Shown: positions 23,714-31,753 of the stretch, piece after piece
Layout of the letters: each line of letters starts with the position of its first letter
Numbering within the stretch: the stretch's first letter is position 1
NCBI GenBank assembly: GCA_020832185.1
Contig: JAFIFE010000019.1
Span: 1 to 43,614, forward strand
Direction of reading: 5' to 3'
DNA: 43,614 nucleotides
Source of the DNA: Alkalibacterium sp.
GTDB lineage: Bacteria > Bacillota > Bacilli > Lactobacillales > Carnobacteriaceae_A
The notes under the pieces: model-generated
Databases searched by the model: none
What the model saw: only the letters and a program-made list of their open reading frames with translations
Told to the model about the DNA's origin: nothing
Position numbers and translations under genes: made by a program

Positions 23714-23788
23714 TGATGTTTCACCTCCTGATCGATTGAAATGAGGATTAAATTTTTACGTCATATCTCTAAACGAAATAATTGGTAT

Positions 23789-23983
23789 AAAAAAACCCCA
23801 TGTCACCGTAGACATAGAGAGAGTGTAAGTTGATTATTCATCACTTTATCCTCGGTATGATATTAAGGCTTTCGCCACATACTGTCTTCGGTATTATTAA
23901 GTTATTTAATGGCCTTGAAGATCCTTCAACACCGGTATAACTGTCATTCATCAATGTATTCAATTAAGGTTAATGCCTTAACC
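23789..23983 (-). promoter_or_regulatory. L10 (rplJL) leader RNA with attenuator terminator
   Basis: The roughly 270-base rplJ leader contains hairpins GGTTAA-GGCA-TTAACC (23968-23983) and TTGAAG-GAT-CTTCAA, and a region of paired ACCGAAGACAGTATG/CATACCGAGGATAAAG elements typical of the L10-binding kink-turn. It ends in a terminator in which CTCTATGTC pairs with GACATGGGG (23796-23819), followed by TTTTTTT (23789-23795). This matches the known L10-leader architecture; exact pairing was judged by eye. Confidence 0.85.
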
Positions 23984-27820: not shown

Positions 27821-28396
27821 ATGACGCGAACCCAAAAAATGATATATATCTCCCTGCTTTCTGCTCAGGCAGTGATACTGGGAATAGTAGAACGCAGCAT
27901 TCCATTTCCGTTTGCTTTTGCGCCGGGTGCCAAGCTCGGAGTTGCAAACCTGATTATCATAATAGCTATTTACACCCTCCCATTTAAAGACAGTTTGAAA
28001 GTCGTCTGGATGCGCCTGTTGATGACCACCCTTCTCGGCGGGACGATTTCGACCTTTATGTACAGCTTTGCTGGTGCCATGCTAAGTTACACCGGTATGC
28101 TGATTGTTAAATTCATCGGTGGCAAGCGGGTCAGCATCATCGGCGTCAGTGCGACAGGTGGGATCCTCCACAACTTAGGCCAGCTGCTGGTCGCGAGCAC
28201 AATCGCTCAGACCTGGACGGTACTCTTATACTTACCAGTGCTTTCATTCATGGGGATTTTGTCGGGAATCGGTATTGGGATTGCGGCCAACTTCATGATG
28301 GACCACGTCACCACGATCCAGCGCTTCAAAAAGGCACATGAGGAAAAAAAAAGTGACAAACGAAGCAAACGACAAATGGCTGACACACTTGTCTAA
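27821..28396 (+). CDS. Gx transporter family membrane protein (annotated elsewhere as heptaprenyl diphosphate synthase component I)
   Basis: 191 residues with five or six membrane segments. ERSIPFPFAFAPGAKLGVANLIIIIA and the SFAGAMLSY segment are typical of the Gx-transporter/Hpre_diP_synt_I family, an S-component-like fold. The C-terminal tail is basic (FKKAHEEKKSDKRSKRQ). The older prenyl-synthase label is doubtful for a protein that is nearly all membrane. ATG 27821 has AAGAAGGA. In other Firmicutes this family neighbours apbE and quinone/flavin extracytoplasmic electron-transfer genes, so pairing with the divergent apbE is meaningful; the actual solute is unknown. Confidence 0.85.
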   Translation: MTRTQKMIYISLLSAQAVILGIVERSIPFPFAFAPGAKLGVANLIIIIAIYTLPFKDSLKVVWMRLLMTTLLGGTISTFMYSFAGAMLSYTGMLIVKFIGGKRVSIIGVSATGGILHNLGQLLVASTIAQTWTVLLYLPVLSFMGILSGIGIGIAANFMMDHVTTIQRFKKAHEEKKSDKRSKRQMADTLV

Positions 28397-28501: not shown

Positions 28502-28690
28502 CGAGTTCGACCTATATCCTCTTATAGCGCCCACTCAGTCATTTTCCCTTTTTGAGTCTGACTTATATCCCACTATAGCGCCCACTCGGTCTTTTTCCCT
28601 TCTTTAGTTTGACTTATATCCTGCTATAGCTCCCACTCAGTTATATTTCCTTCTTGAGTTTGACTTATATCCTGCTATAACGCCCACTCG
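28502..28690 (-). repeat. Tandem array 1: four 36-nt units with 15-nt spacers (51-nt period)
   Basis: Units at 28502-28537, 28553-28588, 28604-28639 and 28655-28690 are 36 bases each. On the minus strand they begin [C/T]GAGTGGG[C/A]G, then [C/T]TATA, GGATATA[A/G]GTC and end ACT[C/A][A/G]. The 15-base spacers between them are purine-rich on minus (AGAAGGGAAAAAGAC type) and similar but not identical. A degenerate fifth unit may lie at 28706-28748. Unit ends form GAGT...ACTC inverted repeats. All frames are interrupted, so it is not coding. It occupies the gap after the Gx terminator; 28749-28946 is AT-rich and holds nothing I recognise. Confidence 0.85.
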
Positions 28691-28946: not shown

Positions 28947-29570
28947 TTATAGGAAAAATTTTCTAAACTTTTCGGTACAGCGATGTTTTGCATTGACGAC
29001 TTTATTACGACTACACTTTAACAATTCAGCTATATCATCATAAGAATACCCTAGATAGCAGTTTAAACAGACATCTTTTTCGAAAGGAGAGAGGCAAGTG
29101 AGGTAATCATTTATCGTTTCTTCGATTATCGGTCGATCTTCAGGCTGGACAGTATGGGATGGTCCAACTAACTGATAACCGTTATCCTCCATTACCCCTT
29201 CAAGTGAAAGAGAATCCCTAATCGATTGCCTCTTTACTGCATTATTCCATCTGATCAAGCGATGAAAATGATTATCAATGCATAGACAGGCATATTGATT
29301 AAAACTCATTCCTTTGTTGAATTCATATTTTTGAGAAGATTCAACAATTACTACACAAGCTTCCTGATAAAGATCATCTCGTTCATACCCTTTTATGTAT
29401 CGTCTAAAAATAGCTCGTTTAATTAATGGCTGACACCTTTCGAGTAAAACTGGAAATACGGTCTCATCACCTGACTGGATTTGAAAAATTAAAGAGTCGT
29501 TGATTGGATCACTAATATCTCTATACGATTTAGTTTCTGTTTTTTTAATTTCTTCTGTCTTAATCTGCAT
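28947..29570 (-). CDS. sigH: Sigma-70 family factor, SigH/ComX-like
   Basis: 207 residues from ATG 29568-29570. The region 2 core is VFPVLLERCQPLIKRAIFRR followed by RDDLYQEACVVIVESSQKY, then FNQYACLCIDNHFHRLIRWNNAVKRQ (regions 2.3-2.4). Region 4 is LSPFEKDVCLNCYLGYSYDDIAELLKCSRNKVVNAKHR with a helix-turn-helix. It sits exactly where sigH lies in Bacillus (rae1-sigH-rpmG), so it is the orthologue, which controls competence in many lactic acid bacteria. AAGGAG spaced 8 bases supports this start over a TTG 11 codons upstream. A candidate promoter and a cre-like dyad precede it. Confidence 0.87.
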   Translation of the reverse strand: MQIKTEEIKKTETKSYRDISDPINDSLIFQIQSGDETVFPVLLERCQPLIKRAIFRRYIKGYERDDLYQEACVVIVESSQKYEFNKGMSFNQYACLCIDNHFHRLIRWNNAVKRQSIRDSLSLEGVMEDNGYQLVGPSHTVQPEDRPIIEETINDYLTCLSPFEKDVCLNCYLGYSYDDIAELLKCSRNKVVNAKHRCTEKFRKFFL

Positions 29571-29645
29571 CCTTTCTTCTCCTTCTGTATATTGTATGAT
29601 CAATTACAGAACAGAGCATTTATAAGAGTAGTAGTCTGTTTCATT

Positions 29646-29804: not shown

Positions 29805-30341
29805 TTATTTATCTAACTTACGGTCAATCATTTGGAAATACAACTCTTCTAGTTGTTTCTTATCTTTATCAGTCAGAGGGGAGTTGCGAGTTTTTGTCTG
29901 CATTCGGTAGAGGGCACTGTCGATGGCGATCTTTTTTTTAGCCGTCTTGATGTCTTTATACAACTCATTGGCAGATTTTCGTGTGGCCCCTTTTTGAAAG
30001 ATGATCCACTGCTCGGCCAAGTCAGAGGTCGCTACCTGGACATGTGTGATCAGCAAATTTTCTTCTCCGACTGCTTTTTCAATGTAGCTGTCGGCAGTTT
30101 CCCCTTCGCTTGTAAAAATAACGGCGACTTCGTACTTATCGTAGCGCTTGGATACACCCGGAACAAGCTGCGCATCGAACACAATTCGGACTTCGATCCC
30201 TTCATACTTGGCATAGTTGCTCAACTCATGCAGCAGAAGATCACGTGCATCTGCCATCTTGTCCTGTTTCTTTAATTTAGCCAGCTCAGGCCACGCACCG
30301 ATCATGTTGTATCCATCGACATACAGTAGTTCTTTCTTCAC
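29805..30341 (-). CDS. rae1: Ribosome-associated endoribonuclease Rae1 (YacP, NYN/PIN domain), GTG start
   Basis: 178 residues. The NYN/PIN fold nuclease has its acidic metal-site residues in YVDGYNMIGAWPEL (D9), VRIVFDAQLVPG, ETADSYIEK and ATSDLAEQ. In B. subtilis YacP/Rae1 enters the ribosomal A site and cleaves mRNA during translation. The family length is about 170. The start is GTG (30339-30341) with AAAGGAGGGG upstream. It is next to rlmB in the conserved order, but 560 bases of repeats separate the two instead of the usual tight linkage. Confidence 0.9.
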   Translation of the reverse strand: MKKELLYVDGYNMIGAWPELAKLKKQDKMADARDLLLHELSNYAKYEGIEVRIVFDAQLVPGVSKRYDKYEVAVIFTSEGETADSYIEKAVGEENLLITHVQVATSDLAEQWIIFQKGATRKSANELYKDIKTAKKKIAIDSALYRMQTKTRNSPLTDKDKKQLEELYFQMIDRKLDK

Positions 30342-30453: not shown

Positions 30454-30897
30454 TGAGTTTTTTCCGATAGTTTATCATTCTCAAAACTCGGCTGGGCTTC
30501 CCTTTTGAGTTTATAAAATAAAGACACCATTCTCAAAACTCAATTGATTATAGGGCCTCAGTTCTTAAAATAGGGCTATTATTTTCTAAACTCCTCATAA
30601 TTCTATGATTCAGTTCACTAAATAATGCCTAATTTAGAATACTCAGTTTCATAAACCTTTTGAGTTTATAAAATAAGACGGTTATTGTATAAACTCATTT
30701 CAATTCTGTGCATCAGTATTAAAAATAACTGCCTTATTTATAGTGCTCAAAAGGAAAAACAACCCAGTTTAAACAATGAACCCCATATTCTTAATACTCA
30801 TTCGACTAAATCTTGCCAGTTCTCTAAATATTGCTCCATTCAGCAAACACAGTCACCACTCACTTGTCAGTTTAAATAATCAAACTCTAATCACTCA
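30454..30897 (-). repeat. Tandem array 2: nine AT-rich inverted-repeat units with 15-nt spacers (51-52-nt period)
   Basis: Units (plus coordinates) are 30454-30490, 30506-30542, 30558-30594, 30610-30645, 30661-30697, 30713-30749, 30764-30800, 30816-30851 and a shorter 30867-30897. Most are 36-37 bases, bounded by T[G/C]AGT...ACTCA, with AAATA/TATTT blocks inside; the unit at 30661 has perfect 10-bp arms TGAGTTTATA/TATAAACTCA. Spacers are 15 (once 14) bases and mostly unrelated in sequence. The array begins 4 bases after the rlmB stop and fills the 560-base gap before rae1; no gene is present. Same geometry as array 1, different core sequence. Confidence 0.85.
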
Positions 30898-30901
30898 TTG
30901 T

Positions 30902-31753
30902 TTAAAGAGCGTGACGTTTACGGTAGACTTCGTACATCAATAGACCTGACGCCACGCTCGCGTTCAGACTCTGAGTGTCACCGATCATAGGAATCGACAA
31001 GGTTTCATCCACTTTGTCTTTGACTAGTCTCGACATTCCTTTGCCTTCACTCCCGATAACTAAACCAACTGGAGAAGATACATCCCAGTGACGGTAATCT
31101 TTGCCTTTCATGTCTGTTCCGAAAATCCATAAGCCGCGTTCTTTCAACTCATCAATCGTCATCGCCATATTCGTAACGCGTGCGACTAATACGTGTTCGA
31201 TTGCTCCAGCTGAAGATTTAGCAACAGTAGAGGTTAAGCCGACTGCGCGTCTTTTCGGAATGATCACACCGTGTGCCCCACTGGCATCAGCTGTTCGTAT
31301 GATCGACCCTAAGTTATGCGGATCTTCAATCCCGTCCAATAGGAGGAAGAAAGGTTGTTCACCTTTCTCTTCAGCTTTTGCAAATAAGTCATCGATCGAG
31401 GCATAATTCACTGGACTAGCCGCTAAAACGACCCCCTGGTGATTCCCTCCATCTGATAAGTTATCCAGTTTTGTTTTAGGTACAAAGGATAGTTGTACTT
31501 TTCGTTTCTTCGCTTCTTTTAAGACTGAGTTGATTTTATCTCCAGACAATCCATCCTGGACAAACAACTTGTTTACATCACGGGTAGATTTCAGGGTTTC
31601 CATGACAGGGTTACGTCCGTATACCATTTCATCTGACTCTGCATCGGATACGTCTTCTTCCAGTTCGGGATCTGCATCCCTATGTCTTGAGTCTTTTTTT
31701 CTAGCTTTGAATTCATCTTTTTTAAGGTGTTTCTGATATGGTTTTTTAGCCAT
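30902..31753 (-). CDS. rlmB: 23S rRNA (guanosine-2'-O-)-methyltransferase RlmB
   Basis: SPOUT-fold SAM methyltransferase modifying G2251 in the 23S P-loop. 283 residues. A charged, presumably disordered N-terminal ~40 residues (KKDEFKARKKDSRHRDADPE) precedes an L30e-like RNA-binding domain (MVYGRNPVMETLKS...) and the trefoil-knot catalytic domain: motif 1 GIEDPHNLGSIIRTA, motif 2 GLVIGSEGKGMS, motif 3 IPMIGDTQSLNASVASGLLMYE. Shine-Dalgarno AAAGGAGAA. It starts 15 bases after mrnC, in the cysS-mrnC-rlmB operon. Confidence 0.95.
   Translation of the reverse strand: MAKKPYQKHLKKDEFKARKKDSRHRDADPELEEDVSDAESDEMVYGRNPVMETLKSTRDVNKLFVQDGLSGDKINSVLKEAKKRKVQLSFVPKTKLDNLSDGGNHQGVVLAASPVNYASIDDLFAKAEEKGEQPFFLLLDGIEDPHNLGSIIRTADASGAHGVIIPKRRAVGLTSTVAKSSAGAIEHVLVARVTNMAMTIDELKERGLWIFGTDMKGKDYRHWDVSSPVGLVIGSEGKGMSRLVKDKVDETLSIPMIGDTQSLNASVASGLLMYEVYRKRHAL

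Follow-up and report, generated by a model that had tools for sequence, protein, structure and literature searches.

The nearest described counterparts of the arrays reported here are BIME/REP repeats and BOX elements, and both depart from them in features that we tested. IHF and gyrase are described as proteins that bind BIMEs, and REP palindromes as being maintained by complementary mutations (PMC2817692). REP ends are described as tagged by GTAG, with CGTC in related repeats (PMC3733652). The arrays studied here resemble this class in being intergenic and dispersed, with several subtypes per genome and inverted elements that alternate at regular spacing. However, the GTAG/CGTC tag is absent, all subtypes seen having TGAGT/ACTCA or close variants of it at their unit ends, the arms hardly covary by unit apart from a small excess in one subtype (AAAGA core), and the period is fixed at 51-52 nt. 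BOX elements of Streptococcus pneumoniae are described as boxA-boxB(n)-boxC composites that are over-represented between convergent genes (PMC3049150). The likeness to BOX lies in the intergenic position, in tandem internal modules of variable number, and in end sequences shared by some arrays of one genome (G021). BOX modules, however, are conserved sequences predicted to fold, whereas here only a frame is conserved, the core is interchangeable, and 21 units of one subtype (AATAA-like) gave no fold; terminal modules were not seen at the first array described below, and shared ends were found in part of the G021 arrays.

Two further systems share the regular layout. CRISPR loci are also repeat-spacer arrays, with near-identical repeats and unrelated spacers, whereas here the repeats vary, the spacers of 13-16 nt have a common A/T tract, and one genome carries many arrays with differing cores. 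Iterons and centromere-like arrays (Rep iterons, parS-type sites) are phased protein sites in tandem; in contrast, many arrays with many cores lie on one chromosome here, and inspection of the listed neighbors by eye revealed no rep or par gene. A literature search, with most subscription journals outside its reach, returned no description of these arrays.

Results

Two arrays in the window

We analyzed a 43,614-nt stretch of DNA from Alkalibacterium sp., called the window throughout. Array 1, at 30454-30897, consists of eight dyad units of 36-37 nt and a degenerate ninth of 31 nt, and has a period of 51-52 nt. The first-pass annotation had counted nine units of 36-37 nt, which is correct for eight of them, and had rightly described the spacers of this array as near-constant in length (15 nt, once 14 nt). 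Units 1 (30454-30490), 2 (30506-30542), 3 (30558-30594), 4 (30610-30645, 36 nt) and 6 (30713-30749) were delineated both by a half-site model and by a strict frame detector, which recovered units 1-6 in the window and none in the reversed window. Unit 5 (30661-30697) is the most symmetric and gave the top match in its own genome to the unit model R1 described below. Unit 7 (30764-30800) was placed by the half-site model, unit 8 (30816-30851) has a decayed right edge with ACACA instead of ACTCA, and unit 9 (30867-30897) was placed by eye. The half-site model, trained on four arrays, gives the half-site of array 1 as T[GC]AGTTnnnAnAATAA, mirrored about a 4-5-nt center, with an AATAA core. Neither the arrays nor their units are assigned a strand.

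Array 1 lies between two minus-strand ORFs, for which we use the names given by the first-pass annotation. It begins a few nucleotides past the stop codon of the ORF named rlmB (30902-31753), the product of which shows 81-82% identity to two Alkalibacterium loci; the ORF named rae1 (29805-30341) lies downstream of the array in the direction of the operon. From this identity we take the genome to be that of an Alkalibacterium-like bacterium in the family Carnobacteriaceae, and the order searched below to be Lactobacillales. Steps of 51 and 52 nt are intermixed within the array, so that the period is not consistently a multiple of three as in a coding repeat, and only one ORF of at least 60 amino acids overlaps it (64 amino acids, TTG start). 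A second array in the window escaped the first-pass annotation, which had reported array 1 only. This array 2 (28502-28690) comprises four 36-nt units separated by 15-nt gaps at a period of 51 nt, as located by the frame detector. Its core is of another subtype, with halves near TTTGACTTATAT and GGGCGCTATAG, and it sits in a convergent gap between ORFs at 27821-28396 (plus strand) and 28947-29603 (minus strand). Rfam at its gathering threshold produced no match over either window array.

Arrays in the same genome and in relatives

Array 1 is not an isolated expansion but one of many arrays in its genome and in related genomes. We built a unit model, R1, from sequence only, using 21 units, with three of the nine arrays of the own genome (G000) among its sources. 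In G000, R1 gave 102 matches at E<=10, and all except C16:211639 fall into nine arrays whose unit centers are 50-52 nt apart. A 300-kb stretch of the own-genome contig C22 carries six arrays with, by eye, at least four core types. Samples of 400 kb contained seven arrays in G000 and four in G001; since the sampled contigs were picked among those with known matches, these counts are not an unbiased density. Reversed stretches of C22, C16 and G001 contained no arrays, nor did one shuffled copy of C22.

The first-pass annotation had proposed a search of related genomes for the unit profile, and in this search arrays recurred across species and in two families. The gap that holds array 1 also holds an array in Alkalibacterium sp. 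LCM1 (L009). The rlmB-rae1 gaps of A. subtropicum (L010) and Lacticigenium (L011) have none, so the array is dispensable there, and among the best 80 of 585 relative loci (818 kb) the LCM1 locus was the only one with an array. A two-unit model, R2, made from 57 of 67 picked pairs, matched 13 of 27 family genomes at E<=0.01; the matches in G015 and G022 were single and marginal, and their best places were array-free. At E<=1e-4, R2 matched 13 of 395 genomes of the order. Nine of these belong to the family and three to genus g30, which is part of a second family; the thirteenth is G129, where the matching place held no array. In the class search 2 of 398 genomes matched, the own genome and G616, the latter again at a place without an array. 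Of the places fetched in three batches, no array was detected in 3 of 43 (L168, L170, L171), 5 of 20 (L182, L190, L196, L197, L199) and 1 of 5 (L205); L197 nevertheless shows units by eye.

Because the weak matches showed species-specific inner cores, we undertook a search for the bare frame. The core-agnostic pattern TGAGT-N26-28-ACTCA-N13-16-TGAGT was run on the 395 order genomes, and the same pattern read backwards, TGAGT-N13-16-ACTCA-N26-28-TGAGT, served as control. The frame matched in 32 of the 395. It was present in all 12 examined genomes of the own genus, among them five not found with R2 (G001, G006, G007, G008 and G010), with one place only in G006 and four scattered places in G003. 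Three further genomes of the family (G013, G021, G042) and seven of the second family contained it, the seven being G025 (69+75 matches) and all six genomes of genus g30. In each of the remaining ten frame-positive genomes the frame matched once or twice, a number like that of the control. The own genome gave 8+14 frame matches against 0+0 for the control, which was mostly 0 and at most 1 per strand in the listed genomes except G002. Arrays that escape the exact frame are borne by G019 and, by eye, G041.

The control pattern itself had 5+4 matches in G002, perhaps an array with swapped geometry. Viral contigs yielded three exact single-unit matches, none within an array and two of them resembling terminators. 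With blastn, which is weak for units this variable, three array queries found no match in plasmids and one array query none in phages.

A constant frame with exchangeable cores

The frame is constant, and the core varies both among species and among arrays of one genome. The inner core is AATAA in G000, AAAGA in G002 and G004 and CCAATGA in part of G005, and there are others. In two species a CCAATGA-like array occupies the same gene gap (L178 in G002 and L191 in G005), and in three species another shared gap is occupied by AAAGA-core arrays (L187, L200 and L198). Two core subtypes have therefore coexisted through speciation.

Spacing rules were derived from 87 arrays with 509 units, pooled from two sets, the first without its units of unusual center. 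Units measured 37 nt (359), 36 nt (149) or 35 nt (1), and the spacers of the 420 steps measured 15 nt (279), 14 nt (80), 16 nt (59) or 13 nt (2). The resulting period was 52 nt (242), 51 nt (157), 53 nt (19) or 50 nt (2), that is, 51-52 nt in 399 of 420 steps. In the 73 frame arrays, the modal combinations of unit and spacer were 36+15 (17), 36+16 (27), 37+14 (10) and 37+15 (19); 36+14 and 37+16 did not occur at the level of arrays, and 37+16 did occur as a single step (19 of 420). This compensation between unit and spacer length had a p of 3e-9, with the 73 arrays not independent of one another. Since unit and spacer trade a base, the period is the conserved quantity. Outer boxes are about 20 bp apart over the spacer and 31-32 bp over the unit, corresponding to two and three helical turns, and so all lie on one side of the helix. 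The first-pass proposal that successive dyads lie about five turns apart on one helical face, as expected of a cooperatively bound protein, is thus supported by a period and a frame that are conserved across species and in two families.

The spacers, which had been thought unrelated, are so only in part, since a central A/T tract appears when they are pooled across many arrays. At positions 6-9 the A/T content is 86-97% in 14-nt spacers (77 distinct) and 77-89% in 15-nt spacers (244 distinct), compared with 43-71% elsewhere in both. The tract is weaker in 16-nt spacers (53 distinct), at 62-79% for positions 6-9.

Within one subtype there is often a consistent difference between the two half-sites, as between GACATTTT and GCACTTTT in G008. 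Such a difference within a subtype is seen at L312-L315 (G008) and at L304-L311 (G025). Units with consistently different half-sites have an orientation, and their reader may be heteromeric or asymmetric.

Conservation in orthologous arrays and agreement between arms

We used shared neighbors to identify four pairs of orthologous arrays: the window array with L167, L144 with L166, L200 with L187, and L188 with L180. From the window array seven units were aligned, and from L188 five of its six. In these pairs the contact columns are preserved, and the arms and spacers diverge. The contact columns agreed in 323 of 400 cells, whereas the arm, center and spacer columns together agreed in 328 of 681 (p 3e-27; cells are not independent, and taking the columns from the family consensus somewhat favors the contact columns). 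Identity was 152/196 for outer and 171/204 for inner contacts, and 123/251 for arms, 60/124 for centers and 145/306 for spacers, with gapped cells and 150 edge cells (95 identical) excluded. In the pair of the window array and L167, inner contact columns kept only 37 of 56 cells, compared with 17 of 67 for the arms, and the L200/L187 pair is so close that the spacers alone lag. An isolated expansion or random drift in relatives, which the first-pass annotation had set against selection, is not what we found: arrays are dispersed, and orthologues retain the contact columns.

The first-pass annotation had also described arms kept complementary as the sequence drifts, and had seen in this a sign of selection for a fold. 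Complementary arms are found in some units, but across many units the agreement is about that which follows from a shared half-site consensus. For 21 units of the AATAA-like subtype, RNAalifold predicted no pair, arms paired in 69.6% of cells against 68.1% after shuffling, and 22 of 500 shuffles reached the observed number of double changes. Among 337 distinct units the arm columns matched at 0.385, compared with 0.363 when right halves were shuffled within the genome (p 0.017) and 0.380 when they were shuffled within the array (p 0.26). For the AAAGA subtype the match was 0.547, compared with 0.509 after shuffling within arrays (p 0.013) and 0.478 after shuffling within genomes, so that the test for compensatory changes, also proposed in the first-pass annotation, gave a small excess in this subtype and little or none otherwise. 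In the 73 frame arrays with 385 distinct units, half-to-half match was 0.553 as observed, 0.544 after shuffling inside arrays (p 0.008) and 0.343 after shuffling across arrays. The dyad chiefly belongs to the subtype of the array, as with a symmetric reader, and not to the single unit, as with base pairs, which speaks against selection for a fold; a weak unit-level excess of arm matching remains, mainly in the AAAGA-core subtype. Since the arms hardly covary within units, RNA hairpins are unlikely.

Genomic position and neighboring genes

Arrays prefer gene ends over divergent promoters. A set of 55 arrays was found with R1 and R2, and 53 of them were classified with a purpose-written codon-usage gene caller. 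The array gaps comprised 17 convergent, 32 codirectional and 4 divergent ones, against 14, 60 and 27 among 101 other gaps of 100-1500 bp at the same loci (p 0.0024; orthologous arrays are not independent). A simple script run without shuffled control found terminator-like sequence separating the stop codon from the array in 31 of the 51 arrays that have a gene pointing at them. Neighboring genes were diverse, with 208 at 106 arrays after removal of sequence duplicates, and the top recurring families are common ones such as ABC transporter-like proteins. Among families recurring at no fewer than three of the 106 arrays, none appeared transposase- or recombinase-like by eye, the neighbors having been compared mutually.

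We considered a NERD-domain protein as the reader of the arrays and set it aside, because ABC transporter-like, LacI-type and aldo-keto reductase-like clusters recur about equally; it remains a candidate lead. NERD-type homologues adjoin arrays at L304:8035-8997, L304:11340-12278, L163:3372-4283 and L257:2001-2918, spread over G019, G025 and a third genome. Pfam confirmed NERD in the two L304 proteins, and the homologues have a cysteine cluster near the C-terminus. A homologue in L293 has no detected array alongside, with the contig starting 91 bp away, and the NERD-type protein had no plasmid match.

Spread of array families

In G021, the arrays L149, L150, L154, L157 and L160 share spacers far above the shuffled level, with identity between loci reaching 1.0 where the 99th percentile of shuffled spacers is 0.73, and L149, L154, L155, L157 and L160 have parts of their ends in common. 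No locus pair in G000 or G019 exceeded the shuffled 99th percentile, and one did in G002 (0.80 against 0.67). In recently expanded arrays the spacers repeat along with the units, and unit number differs between orthologous arrays.

Four of the G021 arrays (L149, L155, L157, L160) and L201 of G002 have a flanking sequence in common. In L155, L157 and L201, at L155:3531, L157:3449 and L201:2472, it begins directly after a terminator-like hairpin with a sequence that resembles a group II intron at its 5' end, and this sequence lies 102-218 nt from the arrays. Rfam RF02001 matched L157:3224-3383 with 35.3 bits (cut-off 32), and in a scan of 40 array loci this group II intron match at the edge of L157 was the only one to touch an array. 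Class C introns are described as inserting after terminators (PMC4424553), and in view of this habit and of the shared flank, one array family may have traveled with an intron-like element. As a general origin of arrays a group II intron was rejected, since only L157 of the 40 loci reached the Rfam cut-off.

Discussion

We think it reasonably probable that these arrays are docking sites on double-stranded DNA for a symmetric reader protein, with what is probably an architectural or boundary role. Each 36-37-bp unit would be read by a putative dimer or tetramer that makes two kinds of contact, one with the constant TGAGT/ACTCA outer box and one, about a helical turn further inward, with an inner core specific to the subtype (AATAA in array 1). 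With outer boxes about two turns apart over the spacer and about three over the unit, bound proteins would share one helical side. The A/T tract of the spacer lies about one turn from both flanking boxes, and a bend or minor-groove contact there would aid wrapping of the DNA. Cooperative stacking of occupied units may then produce a compact nucleoprotein structure where a transcription unit ends. Such a structure would most likely have an architectural use and act between genes as a boundary or as a topological element; BIMEs are similar in position and arrangement. A more speculative extension, which we regard as possible though on the unlikely side, is chromosomal addressing: paralogous proteins with a common TGAGT contact and five-turn ruler would carry swappable core-reading surfaces, each marking its own gene ends, so that species and subtypes differ by core and the frame stays. 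A dispersed repeat with a constant frame and exchangeable cores in two families, most likely of lactic acid bacteria, would represent a chromosome element of a new class. If the arrays are read by a family of proteins, the relation of core to paralogue would offer a code for studying how DNA-binding specificity changes, and the arrays would give a way into the study of chromosome boundaries in this group.

Much of the same evidence can be read in terms of a non-autonomous repeat of the BIME/BOX kind, whose units are sites for a mobilizing enzyme (transposase or recombinase), and which spreads between loci, grows by tandem duplication and has little or no use to the host. Some array families have plainly been copied between loci, as in G021 with its near-identical units, spacers and part of the ends, and genomes hold many subtypes. 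The consistent difference between half-sites would suit it as well, since the two ends of a transposon can differ. Moreover, the bias toward convergent gaps is like that of BOX, and placement at gene ends is also expected of a tolerated insertion, as has been said of BOX (PMC3049150). We judge such a repeat to be rather unlikely nonetheless, because orthologous arrays of different species retain their contact columns as the remaining positions change, length compensation maintains the period, no transposase-like family was seen by eye to recur at three or more of 106 arrays, and spacer sharing above threshold is absent in G000 and G019 and limited to one pair in G002.

An element acting as RNA, in which transcribed arrays form repeated hairpins for processing, mRNA stability or small RNAs, would accord with the near-perfect palindromes of some units (30661-30697), with the small but significant arm-match excess of the AAAGA subtype, and with the place of array 1 between two codirectional ORFs a few nucleotides past the upstream stop. 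It is very unlikely in our assessment, and so is the processed small-RNA array raised in the first-pass annotation: the 21 units gave no consensus fold, covariation at the level of units is absent or weak, terminator-like sequences precede many of the arrays, and the window arrays lack Rfam matches at the gathering threshold. We give still less credence to tandem sites for a tyrosine or serine recombinase whose activity sets copy number. The AATAA-N5-TTATT arrangement within longer inverted arms does resemble recombinase core sites, and orthologous arrays do differ in unit number; however, no center sequence is shared across 12 arrays by eye, no recombinase-like neighbor family was noticed by eye at three or more arrays, and the spacers keep a length and phase that such sites would presumably not need. 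The symmetric reader on DNA is the reading that we prefer.

Rfam also matched two known RNAs near arrays or elsewhere in the window. At L145:3625-3711 in the own genome, a match to the BsrC small RNA lies about 150 nt from an array. In the window, a ribosomal protein L10 leader was found on the minus strand at 23780-23909, with 77.8 bits.
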